From Acidimicrobiia bacterium (GTDB lineage: Bacteria > Actinomycetota > Acidimicrobiia > Acidimicrobiales > Bin134): DNA of 64,000 nucleotides. The number at the start of each line of letters is the position of its first letter. Position 1 is the first letter of the stretch. The stretch spans positions 1-64,000 of the forward strand of contig VYCQ01000012.1 of assembly GCA_009843865.1 (NCBI GenBank), written 5' to 3'. The position numbers and the translations under genes were made by a program. The notes below the pieces were generated by a model. It made no database searches and had not been told where the DNA came from. It saw only the letters and a program-made list of their open reading frames with translations. This document shows positions 7,421 through 61,210 of the stretch, piece after piece.

Positions 7421-7655
7421 GCCCAGCAATATCAACCAAGAGAGCCAGAGCGACCATCCTCCTGTTTTGCGCGGCGATGAGCTAACCGAAGCGGTCTTGC
7501 GGGGGCTGAGGCTGGCCGCCAAGCACGCGCACCTTGTGGCATATCAAACCGGCACCGGGGTGGTGACGCGGCGCAATGGCAAGGTGGGGCTTGGGCCTCC
7601 CGACCCGGCCATGTATGAAGACCTCATTCCGCCTCCTTTTCAAGAAAGCGAATAG
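7413..7655 (+). CDS. Small protein coupled to zeta gene, putative antitoxin
   Basis: GTG start overlaps the original zeta stop (gtgactga); duplicated with zeta at ~9.2 kb. Confidence 0.6.
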   Translation: MTEPSNINQESQSDHPPVLRGDELTEAVLRGLRLAAKHAHLVAYQTGTGVVTRRNGKVGLGPPDPAMYEDLIPPPFQESE

Positions 7656-7772
7656 GGGCCATTCGGCAGGGTTCGAGAGCGTATCAGTTCAACTGTTTAC
7701 CTGTGAGTCCGAATCTTGTTCGACGCTCGCTCAGGGGCCGCACTTCCGCCAATGCCACGAAATGCCAGCCGC

Positions 7773-8030
7773 TTAATTGATCTCCAGTAGGAATAGGCAA
7801 TCGTGGGCAGCGTTCCACATGTCCTCTGGCGGGGCGAATTTGATGGTCGCTACTTCTGTGTCGATCATTCTCCGCAATCGTCTTGACGGAGCCAACACTG
7901 GCCTTCCCGGCAGTGTGTCGGACTCCATAGCCGCCATCATCGCCCGGTAGACGGCTGTCCGTTCCTCGTCGCTTCGGCCTTCTGTCCACTCATCAAGGAC
8001 GCGCAGGTTCGCCCATCTCCAGCGGGGCAT
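7773..8030 (-). CDS. Small W-rich protein, second gene of duplicated cassette (copy 2)
   Basis: RWRWANLRVLDEW...VYRAMMAA...LPGRPVLAPSRRLR...ATIKF; same order as copy 1. Confidence 0.6.
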   Translation of the reverse strand: MPRWRWANLRVLDEWTEGRSDEERTAVYRAMMAAMESDTLPGRPVLAPSRRLRRMIDTEVATIKFAPPEDMWNAAHDCLFLLEIN

Positions 8031-8034
8031 TGCG

Positions 8035-8259
8035 TCAGACAGCGAACTCGTCGCGCCCGAGATTGTCGTTGAATTTCGCCGCTAATTCCTCGCGTGAAAG
8101 GGCATCGTGGCCGATAGTGGCGTCGGCGATCTGCCGGTCCAGCTCAGCTTCCTCAGCCCGGATGCGGGCTTCTGGATCGGCGGATTCAGTTGTCGAAGCA
8201 GTCTGTCGTCTACCAAGCCAGCTTTTTGGATTCAGCAGTTGCAGCAGTGCGGCGCTCAT
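8035..8259 (-). CDS. Small protein, first gene of duplicated cassette (copy 2)
   Basis: Ends 4 nt before 8030 start; resembles 6233-6505 product. Confidence 0.55.
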   Translation of the reverse strand: MSAALLQLLNPKSWLGRRQTASTTESADPEARIRAEEAELDRQIADATIGHDALSREELAAKFNDNLGRDEFAV

Positions 8260-8369
8260 GGATGCCTCTCAAGGTTGCCTATCAAGTGTAAGGCGAGACT
8301 GTAGTTGTGGGGTTGATACCCTGTCTACCAACGGTTGCCCACAGTGTGCAACGGGGTTAGGTTGGTGGG

Positions 8370-8468
8370 TGCCGTCAATTCAAGTCCAGACCGGGAGCCG
8401 GGGATCGACCCCTGGTTCCTTTCGGTGCGGTCTAGGCTATTGACGGCAAATCGATAATCGATTTGCCG
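8370..8468 (+). promoter_or_regulatory. Structured leader with alternative hairpins upstream of TM2 gene
   Basis: TGCCGTCAAT(8370)/ATTGACGGCA(8439), nested AGACCG/CGGTCT and GGGG/CCCC; alternative CGGCAAATCGAT-A-ATCGATTTGCCG (8444-8468). Confidence 0.65.
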
Positions 8469-8482
8469 AAGGGAGTCACCCA

Positions 8483-8812
8483 ATGCCAGCGCTAGACGAG
8501 ACCCTGGCCCTCGCCCAGGCCAAGCAAGGATTGTCCAACGAAGAGAAAATGCAACTGGACGTGTCCTACAACCGGGTACGCAAAGACCCGACCGTAGCGT
8601 TCCTACTCAGCTTCTTCTTCGGCTGGCTGGGCGTGGATCGCTTCTACCTCGGCCACACCGGCCTTGGCATCGGCAAGCTGCTGACCTTCGGCGGTGTCGG
8701 GATATGGACTATCGTTGATTGGTTCCTGATCCGGGGTGCTGCTCGATCTCACAACGCCGCTGCCATAGACGACACGCGGAACATCATCCTCATGTCCCGT
8801 CCTGACGATTGA
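8483..8812 (+). CDS. TM2 domain-containing membrane protein
   Basis: [45 protein letters not shown]. Confidence 0.9.
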
Positions 8813-8838
8813 TCGCCCGCCCGGGTTACGCTGACCGT

Positions 8839-8961
8839 ATGGCCCCCGAGGAACCACCCGAAGAGAGCTAGAAGACCTCTACGACCCCGCGCGACGAGAC
8901 CTTCCACTTCGACGGCACACCCGAAGACCTAGCTGGTGCTCTGCTCAAATCCCGCCCCTAG
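8839..8961 (+). pseudogene. Decayed copy of small ORF found at 58258-58374
   Basis: MAPEEPPEES*...FHFDGTPEDLAGALLKSRP vs VPSEEPPPELEDAYDPDEVFTFEGTPEDLANALFKDAP. Confidence 0.7.
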
Positions 8962-9127
8962 CCTGGGCACCATCTGATATAACCCCCCCCTAATGTTAAC
9001 GCAAACGCTGCGATCAGCCGACTTTACCGAACCGTTTGGGACCATCCCCCTGCACTCCCAGGTATCGAGCATTTCCGGGGATCGAGGGGTCGCGATACCC
9101 CCAAGTATTTGTCAAGTGTGGTGCATG

Positions 9128-9347
9128 GAGCTTTGCTTTCGAGACCACTCTGGCGGGCCGCAGTTATTTGAGGCGCATTGATCGGTGGCGAAGTGATGGC
9201 TATTAAGCCGCCAAGCACGCGCACCTTGTGGCATATCAAACCGGCACCGGGGTGGTGACGCGGCGCAATGGCAAGGTGGGGCTTGGGCCTCCCGACCCGG
9301 CCATGTACGAAGACCTCATTCCGCCTCCCTGTCAAGAAAGCGAATAG
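9128..9347 (+). pseudogene. Internally deleted second copy of zeta + antitoxin module
   Basis: 9128-9206 near-identical to 7089-7168; remainder to 9347 near-identical to ~7515-7655. Confidence 0.9.
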
Positions 9348-12828: not shown

Positions 12829-12879
12829 GTCATTCCCTCATGTTATTCTGATGGTGTAAATAAAGGCAGGTCAGAGATG
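12829..12879 (+). promoter_or_regulatory. Conserved MTase-cassette leader, copy B
   Basis: Gap-free alignment with copies A, C, D; ATG at 12877. Confidence 0.75.
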
Positions 12880-13842
12880 AACGGGGAAAGCAGCATGAGC
12901 TGTCCTGCACGGCTGGAGGCCGGTCAGATCGTCGCGGGAGACTCCCGTGAGTTGATGGAGCGGATCGATGCCGCCAGCGTCGATCTGAGCTTCTGGTCGC
13001 CCCCTTATTTCGTAGGCAAGTCCTACGAGGCCCATTTGGACTTCGATGGCTGGCAGTTATTGATAGCCGACGTGATTGCCGCTCATAGCCGCGTGATTAA
13101 GCCTGGTGGGTTCATGGTGGTCAACATTGCCGACATCCTCTGCTTCCGCGACGAGTCCATGCCCCGCTTTCAGGCTGACAACGTGGCTCGCAAAATCAGT
13201 CCCGTCACAAGGGCTGACGTGGAGGCTGCCATGGCGGCCAACCCCGGAGCGAACCGGCATCAGCTAGCCGCCATTCTTGGCTGTTCTGAGCAGACTGTGC
13301 AGCGTCGGATCGAGGGCAACAACGTTAGGGGCGGTAAGCACGAGATGCCGACACGGGTGAAGCTCACGGGGGGCCTGATGGAGCAGTGGGCGCTTGATGC
13401 TGGACTGTATTTATACGACCGCCGGGTGTGGCATAAAGACCCTTGCTGGGCCAACAGCCAATGGCACTCGAACAGCTACCGCTCTGTTGATGAGTTCGAG
13501 CACCTGCTGGTGTTCTGGCAGCCAGGCGTGGTTACCTACGACCGCAACCGGTTGGAGCGGATCGAGTGGTCGCAGTGGGGATCGAGGGGTGTGTGGGAGA
13601 TACCGTCGGTGCAGCGCAACGACCGCCACGAGGCCGAGTTCCCAGAAGAACTCGCCCGTCGAGTCATCCGCCTCTGGTCGCCCGTCGGCGGGCTGGTGCT
13701 GGACCCGTTCGCCGGATCGGGTACCACGACCGCCGTCGCCGCCCAAGCGTCCCGCCGATGGATGGGCATTGAGCTTGACACCCGAGTGGCCACGATGGCC
13801 CGCAACCGCACCTTCACTCAGCAATGCAGCCTGATCGCGTAG
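12877..13842 (+). CDS. Orphan DNA methyltransferase (SPPY type) with HTH-like insert
   Basis: SFWSPPYF (motif IV), LDPFAGSGTTTAVA (motif I); internal 'NRHQLAAILGCSEQTVQRRIEG' helix-turn-helix-like segment. Confidence 0.8.
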   Translation: MNGESSMSCPARLEAGQIVAGDSRELMERIDAASVDLSFWSPPYFVGKSYEAHLDFDGWQLLIADVIAAHSRVIKPGGFMVVNIADILCFRDESMPRFQADNVARKISPVTRADVEAAMAANPGANRHQLAAILGCSEQTVQRRIEGNNVRGGKHEMPTRVKLTGGLMEQWALDAGLYLYDRRVWHKDPCWANSQWHSNSYRSVDEFEHLLVFWQPGVVTYDRNRLERIEWSQWGSRGVWEIPSVQRNDRHEAEFPEELARRVIRLWSPVGGLVLDPFAGSGTTTAVAAQASRRWMGIELDTRVATMARNRTFTQQCSLIA

Positions 13843-56672: not shown

Positions 56673-58208
56673 TCAGCCGGTTTCGCTGATTGTTACTGAT
56701 TTGACGGTTACCGCCGGTTCGGGGCTTCCGCCTAGTGGGTTGCCGGGTTCGGCAACATGGCTAGCCAAGATTGCCTCGGCCACTACAAGGCTTGCGTCGT
56801 CCATTTGGCCGAACACCACATAGGTGCCCTGACTGTTTAGCAGTGCGGCGTTCTCGTTGACTGTGAAGAAGAACTGCGCGCTAGCGCTGTTGGGTGCTGA
56901 TGTGCGGGCCATGACGATCTGGCCCGGCTCGTAGGTAAAGTTTGATCCTTCGTCTATGATGGAGTAGCCAGGGCCAGGATCAGCTGGCGAGTTGGTGTGG
57001 GGAGCCCCTCCTTGGATGATGCCAATGCCGGGGTCGGTGCGGAATAAGAGCGTGTTGTCGTAGTAGTGATGCAGGGCCAGCACAGCGAAGTTGTTGGCAG
57101 TTATGGGTGTGTTTACCATGTCGAGAGCGACCCGTATCTCACCAGCGGTGGTGTCAAACACTGCGGTGTACTGAAGGGTTGGATCTAAGCAGAGGGGCTG
57201 AGGGTCCAAGAACTCCAAGATCACCGGCCCCGAGCCGTCGATTGGCGGGCATGAGTCCCAGGGGCCCGATTCGAAATGCTCAGACTCAAAGTCTCCTGTG
57301 TCGTTTAGATCAGAAGAGCCAAAATCAGACGAGTCAGTCTCAGTAGAGCTTGTCTCAGAGGGGTCAACATCAGAGGAGGTTGCGGCATCGTTTAGTAGCG
57401 CGATCTCTTCTGGTGTGAGGCATCTGTTCTGAAGTGCTTCAAGCTCGCGTACTAGTTCTCTCATTTCTTCTTCTTCGGCTTCTTCATTGTTAAGCATGAG
57501 GTCGATCATCTCGTCGGGGATGCCCTCGGCTACGCATTGTGCACTGGCTTGAGAAAGACCTTGTTGAACGTATTCTTCTTGGAGCAGTGTTCGAATGTCG
57601 ACGCAGGCTTGAAAGGTTGTGGTTGTTTCCTCTGCGCTGAGCCCAAAGGTTTCGTCTGTTTCTGCGATTAGTATGTTTTCTGCCACAGTTCGGATGCTCT
57701 CATCTGATGTTTCGGAGGCTATACAGGTTGCTATTTGTGGCGGCGTACCGTCAGCGGCGATTGTGCTTTCTAAAACGTCCCGCCAATCCAGGCAATTTAT
57801 TGAGCTGTCCACGATTGTGGAAATCTCAGCCTCGCTAATTGCAAATTCTTCACCCAGCGCAAAGTCGCCCCTCGTCTCATAGGCTGCGGTCATCGAATCA
57901 GGGTTGAGCCCGAGTTCGTTGAGGCGATTGTCTGAGAAGGTTTCAGCTATTTTGTTGGCCAGGCATTGCAGTCCATCTTCAGCCAACGCGTCCGACCCCA
58001 TTTCGTTGTTCAATAGCACTAAGAACATCGCATCAGCTAGCTCTTGTTGGGTCTGGGTGAGCATCCCAGCGGTGCTTGATGAGTCGGGGGTATCAACGGC
58101 CTCGGATTGGGTAGTCGCAGTAGCGATATCCTCTTCGCTACTACTGGAGCAAGCTGTCGCAAGCAGCGAGATTAATCCCAAGTATAAGAGTATTTTCGAC
58201 ATGCGCAT
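56673..58208 (-). CDS. Lipoprotein with C-terminal cyclophilin-type peptidyl-prolyl isomerase domain
   Basis: LLATACSSSS lipobox; ALHHYYDNTLLFR...IQGGAP, SAQFFFTVNENAALLNSQGTYVVFGQM. Confidence 0.85.
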   Translation of the reverse strand: MRMSKILLYLGLISLLATACSSSSEEDIATATTQSEAVDTPDSSSTAGMLTQTQQELADAMFLVLLNNEMGSDALAEDGLQCLANKIAETFSDNRLNELGLNPDSMTAAYETRGDFALGEEFAISEAEISTIVDSSINCLDWRDVLESTIAADGTPPQIATCIASETSDESIRTVAENILIAETDETFGLSAEETTTTFQACVDIRTLLQEEYVQQGLSQASAQCVAEGIPDEMIDLMLNNEEAEEEEMRELVRELEALQNRCLTPEEIALLNDAATSSDVDPSETSSTETDSSDFGSSDLNDTGDFESEHFESGPWDSCPPIDGSGPVILEFLDPQPLCLDPTLQYTAVFDTTAGEIRVALDMVNTPITANNFAVLALHHYYDNTLLFRTDPGIGIIQGGAPHTNSPADPGPGYSIIDEGSNFTYEPGQIVMARTSAPNSASAQFFFTVNENAALLNSQGTYVVFGQMDDASLVVAEAILASHVAEPGNPLGGSPEPAVTVKSVTISETG

Positions 58209-58257
58209 GATCCTACCTATTTCTTGGGGCTTATATCCCTAAGTGTCGAAGCGCCTA

Positions 58258-58374
58258 TCACGGCGCATCCTTGAACAGCGCGTTTGCGAGGTCTTCGGGC
58301 GTTCCCTCGAAGGTGAACACTTCGTCAGGATCGTAGGCATCCTCTAGTTCTGGCGGCGGTTCTTCTGACGGCAC
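58258..58374 (-). CDS. 38-aa small ORF at the end of the transposon operon
   Basis: GTG start with ggagag SD; homologue (decayed) at 8839; not in the supplied ORF track. Confidence 0.65.
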   Translation of the reverse strand: MPSEEPPPELEDAYDPDEVFTFEGTPEDLANALFKDAP

Positions 58375-58385
58375 GGCGCTCTCCT

Positions 58386-59099
58386 TCAAATCTCTCTGAA
58401 CAATTCAATGCAAGCGTTCAAGTCATCACGCCAAACGGCGAAGTCATACCAACCGCACCCGACGCAGCCTGACGGGTCATCCTTGTCGGCTGGTGCCCAA
58501 GTCCTGTTCCCCTCATAGAAGAACGCTATCCCGAATGGTGTGCCGCGCTGGCCTGTGTCGAAGCAGGTTTCACAAGACCGGCTCTTCAGCAGGTTGTGGC
58601 TTACGCTTCCGTTGGACGACTTCAACATCTGGAACTTGGCTCGTATGTCTTCGTCAGTCATCTCCGAGTAGTTGGTCTGGCCAACGCGTGTGTGCTCGTT
58701 CCAGCGGATCATGGGCAGCTTGTGGTCAATGGTCAACTGGCTCGGCGGGCGGCTGGTCATCTCCACAATGTCACGAAGTTCTAGCACTTGCTGGACCCGT
58801 TTGGCGAAGCCGCGCGGCAGCGACGTGGAAGGGATCGCCGGTTTCACTTCGCCCGTCCATCGGTCGTGGCGCGTGGTCTTGTCGCAATCCGAACACAGCC
58901 GGTCCTCGCTGAGTATCACCATGCCATCGCGCGACTGTGTACCGCGCTGCAATCCCTGTATCCCCGACCCTCCTGCTATCTGCGACGTTTGGACGTGGGC
59001 ATACTCGCACTCGCGGCAGTGCCATTCTTGATCGGAAAGCACAAGGTAAACCAAGTACACCTTGGAGTCCGGTTGGAACGCCCCCTCCAAGTCGCTCAC
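58386..59099 (-). CDS. HNH-like type II restriction endonuclease (zinc-cysteine rich)
   Basis: CxxC pairs, LTIDHKLPMIRW...HNLLKSRSCETC; ATGA overlap with MTase. Confidence 0.65.
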   Translation of the reverse strand: MSDLEGAFQPDSKVYLVYLVLSDQEWHCRECEYAHVQTSQIAGGSGIQGLQRGTQSRDGMVILSEDRLCSDCDKTTRHDRWTGEVKPAIPSTSLPRGFAKRVQQVLELRDIVEMTSRPPSQLTIDHKLPMIRWNEHTRVGQTNYSEMTDEDIRAKFQMLKSSNGSVSHNLLKSRSCETCFDTGQRGTPFGIAFFYEGNRTWAPADKDDPSGCVGCGWYDFAVWRDDLNACIELFREI

Positions 59100-60085
59100 G
59101 CAAACATCCCCAAATCCGCTATCCGCTTGGCTGCTGTGTCGAATATCTCAGGGTCGCTCTCGAACGCCAGACAGCGCCTCTGCTTTTCCACAGCGGCGAC
59201 GATAGTCGCGGCGCTGCCAGCAAAAGGGTCCAGTACCAGATCGCCGGAATCACTGAACAGGTCGATGAACTCCGACAAGAGCGGGACGGGTTTCTGTGTG
59301 GGGTGGATGCGCTGCTGGGGCGACGGCGACTTGTGTGTGAACACGTTGTGGACGGCATGGCCGTTGAACTTTGTTCCCGGCCTCTTGCCGACCATGATCG
59401 CCTCCCACGCGTTGATCGGCTTGAATTTGTGGTTGAACGGGACAGGGTTGGTCTTGTGCCACACCATCGGCCCGACCGCCACCAGTCCGTGATCCTCGAA
59501 TATCTCCGAATACTCGCCTATCTGCGCCTGGGCGCAGAACACCACGGCCCATCCACCGACCTTCGGGAGAACGGCGCTGGTCCACTCTTCAGGAGGGGGA
59601 AAGCTGTTATCCCAGTCCCCGAAGTGTCCTTTTGGCATGATGAAGTCGCCGCCACCCTTGCGAGAGCGCCGGGGCACCTGCGTCTCGCAGGTATACGCCT
59701 TGCTGATGCTGTACGGCGGGTCGGTCAGAAGCAGATCAATTGATCCGTCGCCCAAAGAGGCAGCGCCTTCGATGCCGTCCCCAAACCTAAACTCGTAGAG
59801 ACTCCCGAATTGGTTTGCGGGGACTTCCACCAGGCCGTCTCCCTCAGCATTTTCTACGGCTGATATGACAGACAACACATCGCCGTCGGTGAAACACACA
59901 GCACCGTTGCTCACCCGCACTTCTCCCAACCGCAGCGCCTTACGCCCCTCATGCTTCTGCAACTCGATTGAATAGGTTTCAGCGTTTCGTCCCAGTACGG
60001 CATGGCTGATGTGGTGGCGGTGGTTCGGGAAGTTGTCGGATACCCACTTATTGACTTTGTACCGGATTTCCAGAAGTTTGCTCAT
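59096..60085 (-). CDS. N6-adenine DNA methyltransferase (DPPY type)
   Basis: LLTDPPYSIS; LDPFAGSAATIVAAV; HPTQKPVPL. Confidence 0.88.
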   Translation of the reverse strand: MSKLLEIRYKVNKWVSDNFPNHRHHISHAVLGRNAETYSIELQKHEGRKALRLGEVRVSNGAVCFTDGDVLSVISAVENAEGDGLVEVPANQFGSLYEFRFGDGIEGAASLGDGSIDLLLTDPPYSISKAYTCETQVPRRSRKGGGDFIMPKGHFGDWDNSFPPPEEWTSAVLPKVGGWAVVFCAQAQIGEYSEIFEDHGLVAVGPMVWHKTNPVPFNHKFKPINAWEAIMVGKRPGTKFNGHAVHNVFTHKSPSPQQRIHPTQKPVPLLSEFIDLFSDSGDLVLDPFAGSAATIVAAVEKQRRCLAFESDPEIFDTAAKRIADLGMFA

Positions 60086-61023
60086 GCTGCCAGTTCCTCC
60101 ATCCTTCTGCGGGCGTGTACGCCGTTGGCGATCAGCCGCTCATAGGTGAGCCGCTTGCGGTCCATGCCCCTCACAAGGCTTCCCATCTGGTCGATGGTGT
60201 GCTTGGGCCGCTCGTTGTGGCGGTGCAAGAACTCGGCCACGTAGCGATCCAGGTGCTCCGGCGAAATCTGGTGGTAGGTGCCGTGATACCCGCGTTTCAG
60301 TATCGACCAGAACGACTCCATGCCGTTGGTGTGGGCCATTCCATCGACGTACTGCCCGACCGAGTGCTTGACCGCCCGATGGCTGTAGCCCGCCTTCTTC
60401 AAGGGGAGGTAGCCCTTGGCCTCATCGGTCAGCACCAGCGCTCCCTTGTCGGCGTGGTCCTGGACCATCCCCACCAGGGAATCAGATGTCGTGTCGTCCA
60501 CCACGCGCGCAGCCACCTTGTTGGTGGAGCGGTCCCTCACACCGGCGACGATAGCCTTGCCCACCGGGCCTCCGGCGGCTTTCATCCGCTTGTGCTGGTG
60601 CTTGTTCTTCTCCAGCCCGCCGACATAAGTCTCATCGGCCTCCACCGGCCCGGAGAACAGGAAGTCCTCAGCAGCCATCGCTTCCCGCAGGCGGTGGAGC
60701 ATGAACCAAGCGGCCTTCTGGCCGATGCCCAAGTCGCGGTGCAGCTTCATGCTACTCACGCCCTTCAAGCTGGTCATCACGATGTAGACGGCGAACACCC
60801 AGGTCTGGTGGCCCATCTTGGAAGATTCCATGACGGTTCCCGTACGGACGCTGAACTTGCGCCCGCACTCCCTCTCGCGGCACCTGAACGACATCGTGCG
60901 GCGCTTCACGAGCCAGCGCTCGGCGGCGTTGTCGTTCGGGAACATCCGCAGAAGCTCGATCAGCGTGATCCCGTCGCGCTCGCTTCTCCCTGGCGCTTTC
61001 TTCTTCACTCTATCCATTTCCAC
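60082..61023 (-). CDS. IS1595-family (ISXO2-like) transposase
   Basis: VEADETYVGGLEKN, LVLTDEAKGYLPL, HTNGMESFWSILKRGYHGTYHQ; ATGA overlap with MTase. Confidence 0.9.
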   Translation of the reverse strand: MEMDRVKKKAPGRSERDGITLIELLRMFPNDNAAERWLVKRRTMSFRCRERECGRKFSVRTGTVMESSKMGHQTWVFAVYIVMTSLKGVSSMKLHRDLGIGQKAAWFMLHRLREAMAAEDFLFSGPVEADETYVGGLEKNKHQHKRMKAAGGPVGKAIVAGVRDRSTNKVAARVVDDTTSDSLVGMVQDHADKGALVLTDEAKGYLPLKKAGYSHRAVKHSVGQYVDGMAHTNGMESFWSILKRGYHGTYHQISPEHLDRYVAEFLHRHNERPKHTIDQMGSLVRGMDRKRLTYERLIANGVHARRRMEELAA

Positions 61024-61210
61024 ATATTACTGGCGATGAGTGACAGTTTGTCCGTATAGCCTGTTCAGACACGGTTTTCGCCACTTTCAGATGTAAGCCC
61101 CCTCATTTTTAAGCTGGATTTTTTCACTGTAAGACATTGCAAGAATAGCATGAGATTTTATTCATGGGTTGCATGCCACTGTTGCAATGCGTATCGTTAG
61201 GTGGGTATCG

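Follow-up and report, generated by a model that had tools for sequence, protein, structure and literature searches.

Members of the IS1595 family that carry passenger genes (tIS) are known, among them MTnSag1/tISSag10 and tISCpe8, which have 25-bp terminal inverted repeats (TIRs) and 8-bp repeats (PMC5704250). An 8-bp target-site duplication (TSD) is usual in this family, and an N-terminal zinc-binding domain is found in all of its groups except IS1016 (PMC8101967). For restriction-modification (R-M) genes, complexes have been described that are flanked by two IS copies (composite) or that are joined to the chromosome as plasmid cointegrates; IS-linked movement of R-M genes has been shown, as have defence and post-segregational retention for other R-M systems (PMC3031569). 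The PluTI element and a plasmid R-M system of Rhizobium leguminosarum are, as cited there, linked to an IS or to IS repeats (PMC3031569). Among the immune cargo recognised in Tn7-like transposons, R-M systems are the most frequent (PMC8649781).

The window analysed here is the whole stretch of 64,000 nucleotides, to which all positions refer unless a locus is named. Positions 58226-61101 (2876 bp) are very probably an IS1595-family unit transposon (tIS) of the order TIR, transposase, R-M cassette, small distal ORF, TIR, in which the R-M cassette would be exchangeable and which is itself probably immobile now. Its genes are read on the minus strand, the methyltransferase (MTase) gene preceding the restriction endonuclease (REase) gene (Table 1).

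Table 1. Features of the IS1595-type element (positions in the window).
Feature	Position	Strand	Basis
Distal terminal inverted repeat, GGGGCTTATATCCCTAAGTGTCGAA	58226..58250	+	20/25 vs other end; resembles ends of relatives
Small ORF, 38 codons + stop, VPSEEPPPELEDAYDPDEVFTFEGTPEDLANALFKDAP	58258..58374	-	Between REase and distal TIR; also conserved in related elements
Type II restriction endonuclease, 237 aa	58386..59099	-	PADLOC; homologues in L006, L012
N6/N4 DNA methyltransferase, 329 aa	59096..60085	-	Pfam, PADLOC, PDB; conserved motifs
IS1595-family DDE transposase, 313 aa, GTG start	60082..61023	-	Pfam, NCBIfam, alignment with nine relatives
Transposase-side terminal inverted repeat, GGGGCTTACATCTGAAAGTGGCGAA	61077..61101	-	20/25 vs distal end; pattern unique in genome

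Both TIRs open with GGGG, in keeping with the GG start that is typical of IS1595-family TIRs. Their match of 20/25 compares with a maximum of 19, and mostly 16-17, in 100 dinucleotide shuffles of both flanks; by itself it is modest, yet above chance. We consider the ends to be real because relatives in other genomes have such ends at the same place (GGGGCTTATATCGGATGGTGCCCAA in locus L074, GGGAATTATATACCTAAGTGGCGAA in locus L146). Within the whole 1.79-Mb genome, the two-end pattern (up to three mismatches) occurs at these two sites only, and the element is present in a single copy. Its G+C content is 59%, compared to 50-53% in the genes flanking either side. MTase and REase lie inside the TIRs as non-transposition genes, which is what characterises a tIS, and this layout is repeated in relatives. 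No 8-bp TSD was detected at this element (left flank TATTTCTT, right flank CTCATTTT), whereas seven related elements have one. Insertion at this site cannot be demonstrated by an empty site since the flanking genes are non-syntenic: homologues of PPIase, Bfd/Bfr and ClpB are not adjacent to each other in relatives, and no orthologous empty site occurs in the genomes compared, which are mostly draft assemblies. A promoter and terminator scan of the element gave nothing better than shuffled sequence, and there is no recognised relaxase among its four ORFs. Most genomes of the genus encode several paralogues of the PPIase lipoprotein whose gene lies next to the left end (56673-58208).

The original prediction had described much of this locus, and its coordinates and frames proved correct when rechecked. 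This applies to the ends enclosing transposase, MTase and REase, to the 17-bp distance between the left end and the start codon of the PPIase gene (58208), to the lack of a clear TSD, and to the 4-nt overlaps at both gene junctions, where the MTase ATG overlaps the transposase TGA (ATGA, 60082-60085) and the REase GTG overlaps the MTase TGA (GTGA, 59096-59099). Its assignment to an IS1595-like element is borne out by matches to Pfam DDE_Tnp_IS1595 (4.1e-40) and to NCBIfam IS1595 (NF033547; 1.7e-55, 188 bits against a cut-off of 75). It included neither the small ORF at 58258-58374 nor the deletion in the zinc ribbon of the transposase, nor the many relatives with different R-M genes.

This deletion became apparent from an alignment with nine relatives. 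The transposase is devoid of about 23 residues, including the first CPxC pair of the N-terminal zinc ribbon, which is kept in most of the aligned relatives; it has a 2-residue insertion at the second zinc-ribbon pair, and the DDE residues are in place. The N-terminal zinc-binding domain of the family is thus incomplete in the copy at 58226-61101. Because the protein departs from the family in this domain, we regard the transposase as an IS1595-family protein and the element as a derived and probably defective copy. The zinc-ribbon deletion, the missing TSD and the single copy together indicate that the element is probably not mobile by itself at present.

The same three features, together with the conserved R-M genes, would also fit a dead relic, with an R-M system that serves as host defence, is kept by selection on the host and is not part of a mobile unit. 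A second, decayed related R-M pair elsewhere in the genome (L013) would agree with this as well. However, the transposase otherwise reads through 313 codons without interruption and has its DDE residues; any decay would therefore be recent, or else the protein may still function or the element may be moved in trans. We give the dead relic a considerable chance of being the correct explanation, if one below even.

The MTase matches Pfam PF01555 (3.2e-23) and PADLOC MTase_II (3.5e-32), its best solved relative in the PDB is DpnA (5.5e-22), and its DPPY and DPFAGS motifs are conserved in comparison to homologues. The REase was assigned to no Pfam family and is matched by the PADLOC profile PDLC03537 (REase_II, 4.9e-69); it has CxxC motifs and an HNH-like core (IDHKLPM...HNLLKSR), which is invariant or nearly so in five homologues. 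Its PDB sequence search returned weak LIM-domain matches only, which we read as chance similarity of zinc ligands, and an AlphaFold model computed from four sequences was discarded (pLDDT 37). The two genes are adjacent, as is usual for type II R-M systems, and look intact, their frames being open and conserved. An adjacent MTase-REase pair with 54-60% identity and the same gene order is found in a congeneric genome (L012 in G012) and in an Anaerolineae MAG (L006); for the REase by itself, the identity is 55-60%. There is no recognised transposase beside either pair, and the R-M genes are therefore not exclusive to the element. Next to the REase homologues from cyanobacteria (n=2; L004, L005), the neighbour is a C5-type MTase, its type being read from motifs.

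Two further R-M-related loci were encountered in this genome. One is a decayed second copy of the R-M pair (L013 9988-10510, contig C32 of G000), in which MTase residues 225-329 (73%) are joined to REase residues 98-151 (93%); the TIR-like sequence GGGGACTTATATC is found about 42 bp upstream. The other is an apparently orphan DNA methyltransferase in the window (12877-13842), which is 72% identical to the MTase of an SfiI-type R-M system (L085 in G013); an SfiI-type REase partner was not found within the window.

Among 22 genomes of the genus, 13 loci score above the IS1595 cut-off. The relatives that are bounded by TIRs come from the genus plus one viral contig, and others from elsewhere in the order. 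Enclosed by TIRs are an EcoRI-family REase with a D12 MTase (L075, L076), an MTase-Mrr fusion (L080), an MTase-HNH fusion (L007 and L095, the latter from elsewhere in the order), and remnants of an MTase_II and a DUF262-type REase_II (L074). Directly downstream of the transposase, as judged by adjacency, are BstXI R-M genes (L078, L081) and SfiI R-M genes (L085), the transposase of the latter being a fragment. Genome G004 (L089, L141) has type III mod and res genes between a transposase fragment and a small ORF. From elsewhere in the order come an MTase-HNH fusion (L098), an MT-A70 MTase with a 235-aa protein (L100), and PIN-domain pairs (L104, to which L109 and L114 add examples from plasmids). 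The related elements L079 and L144 have no recognised cargo. Because some related elements carry other or no recognised cargo, R-M cargo is frequent, not universal. An N6/N4 MTase gene lies within 3 kb of four of the 13 transposases of the genus, compared to 0.2 expected from 169 such genes in 69 Mb with one MTase family counted (p = 5e-5), which rules out a chance proximity of R-M genes to the transposase.

Perfect 8-bp TSDs were found for L074 (AAGCCGAA), L075 (AAACAACC), L079 (AAAAATTT), L095 (AAAGGTTG), L103 (TTCGAATC), L146 (AAACGTAA) and L148 (ATTGATTT). Related transposases with ends that exclude the R-M genes would have spoken against the original prediction; a search for them showed the opposite, namely ends that include the R-M genes, in some cases with perfect 8-bp TSDs. 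Its view of mobility and addiction or defence in one unit is upheld insofar as the R-M genes lie inside true ends, while present mobility had to be given up (half of the zinc ribbon lost, no TSD, single copy).

At three loci with a distant IS1595 transposase (L109 4339-6818, L114 757-3310, and L104), the transposase is followed by a protein of 260-290 aa, a toxin-like protein with a PIN domain, and a short ORF, and the genes nearly or actually overlap the transposase gene; these may be candidate addiction cargo in the same layout. On an Entomospira plasmid (L111 5548-7353), a gene for an AriA/OLD-like ATPase comes directly after an IS1595 transposase.

The element shares with L074 77% DNA identity over 801 bp (transposase) and 75% over 80 bp (small-ORF region), and there is no DNA similarity in the cargo between these two regions. 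In the transposase tree, the proteins from 58226-61101, L077 and L074 form one supported group beside L075/L076; BstXI, Mrr-fusion and HNH-fusion cargo is found on the next branches, neighbouring branches thus differing in R-M type. Since transposase and small-ORF DNA are common and the cargo is not, and since neighbouring branches differ in their R-M genes, the backbone is, as judged from these comparisons, the stable part and the cargo the changing part. The reverse, selfish R-M modules that repeatedly capture different IS1595 ends as vehicles, is improbable: IS-linked R-M movement is known from experiment (PMC3031569), and one HNH-type R-M system occurs both with and without a transposase, but the transposases with different R-M genes form one supported group with common ends and a common distal small ORF, and there is little relationship among the R-M types, which again points to the backbone as the stable part. 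Least probable is an ordinary R-M operon beside an unrelated solo insertion sequence with a coincidental end match, for which one could invoke the 20/25 match of the two ends taken by themselves and the homologous R-M pairs without a recognised transposase (L012, L006), but which is already contradicted by TIR- and TSD-bounded relatives that share the end motif and have R-M genes inside, and by the conserved small ORF between cargo and distal end.

This small ORF is preceded by AGGAGAG. Its protein has 62-68% identity with the products of equivalently placed ORFs in L074 and L077, two elements from one congener, with 75-76% DNA identity to both over 80 bp of the region. It belongs to no Pfam family, and plasmid searches with two of the small ORFs gave nothing useful. 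We searched the genus and 395 genomes of the class with a profile made from eight small ORFs. Within the genus, this search detected unlisted copies within the L080 element and directly behind the type III genes of G004. In the class, it detected six new held-out loci in two other families. In five of these, an IS1595-like transposase precedes the small ORF on the same strand; the sixth is on a 3.8-kb contig without a transposase of this kind. R-M genes lie between transposase and small ORF in four of the five: MTase-Mrr fusions in L145, L146 and L148, the Mrr match being weak in L146 and L148, and, in L149, an MTase together with a His-Me finger REase (PADLOC REase_II, 2.1e-43). Several of the small proteins have RGRP, an AT-hook core, N-terminal to a common PDTPENIAxA(I/V)L motif. 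Homology of the small ORFs beyond the closest group would depend on this short motif, though the held-out matches fall where predicted. As a guess, the small distal protein might act at AT-rich ends. We predict that an unannotated small gene by the distal end marks such elements, as it did for five of the six held-out profile matches.

The window also contains a relict of a second, related element (7727-8987), whose DNA is 86% identical to that of the L077 element (genome G008) along 759 bp. It has a broken small-ORF copy (8845-8949, plus strand), a TM2-like membrane protein ORF inside, and a solo end (8963-8987, minus strand) with 3 mismatches to the L074 end, the best of 100 shuffles having 6; the body of the transposase has been lost. 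On either side of this relict is one copy of a 141-bp direct repeat (7515-7655 and 9207-9347), the two being 97.9% identical.

Under our preferred reading as a unit transposon, the transposase would move everything between the ends and make the 8-bp target duplication that is seen in relatives; for the copy at 58226-61101, such movement would lie in the past only. The R-M pair would be exchangeable cargo between the transposase and the small distal gene. With the MTase gene preceding the REase gene in tight overlap, methylation would be expected before or together with endonuclease activity upon entry into a new cell. Once established, and going by known R-M behaviour, the R-M pair would be expected both to protect the host and to make losing the element costly to it. 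Mobility was probably lost through the zinc-ribbon deletion, with the R-M genes and the small ORF staying open and conserved. The gene overlaps suggest translational coupling of transposase, MTase and REase. This is not general in relatives: transposase and cargo overlap or nearly abut in L080, L098 and L109, and are separated by gaps of about 100-270 bp in L007, L075, L076 and L078.

More tentatively, and at close to an even chance, the compact IS1595 lineage might be a specialised R-M vehicle with a fixed frame in which unrelated R-M cassettes are exchanged, the small distal protein (AT-hook-like RGRP in several cases) serving specifically to assist transposition or to control the cargo. R-M genes are patchy in their distribution and often transferred, but the transfer of single R-M pairs is poorly accounted for; small elements that have one transposase and exchange their R-M cassettes repeatedly would be a direct vehicle for them. 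The frame of the element could be used to find more R-M or defence genes. The interest is thus in the family more than in the probably immobile copy at 58226-61101.

The element resembles MTnSag1/tISSag10 and tISCpe8 in its IS1595-type DDE transposase, its TIRs of about 25 bp, the 8-bp duplications of the family, and a passenger inside one pair of ends. It differs from them by having a type II R-M pair as cargo instead of a resistance gene, by the conserved small ORF at the distal end and, in the copy at 58226-61101, by the damaged zinc ribbon. Our literature search, which covered work other than the founding IS1595 description, returned no IS1595-type unit transposon with R-M cargo and no distal small gene. 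As in IS-linked R-M systems, including, as far as the citing text describes them, PluTI and the Rhizobium leguminosarum plasmid system, the R-M genes travel with transposable DNA; in contrast to the R-M complexes of PMC3031569, those at 58226-61101 lie within one element that encodes its own transposase. R-M as immune cargo, and closely related transposons with unrelated cargo, are shared with the Tn7-like transposons, which have a multi-protein machinery and a median length of 14-29 kb (PMC8649781), compared to one transposase and mostly about 2.4-5.4 kb for the IS1595-type elements reported here. While R-M genes on transposons are already known, the compact arrangement of a single transposase with R-M genes and a distal small gene is, within the literature covered, new.
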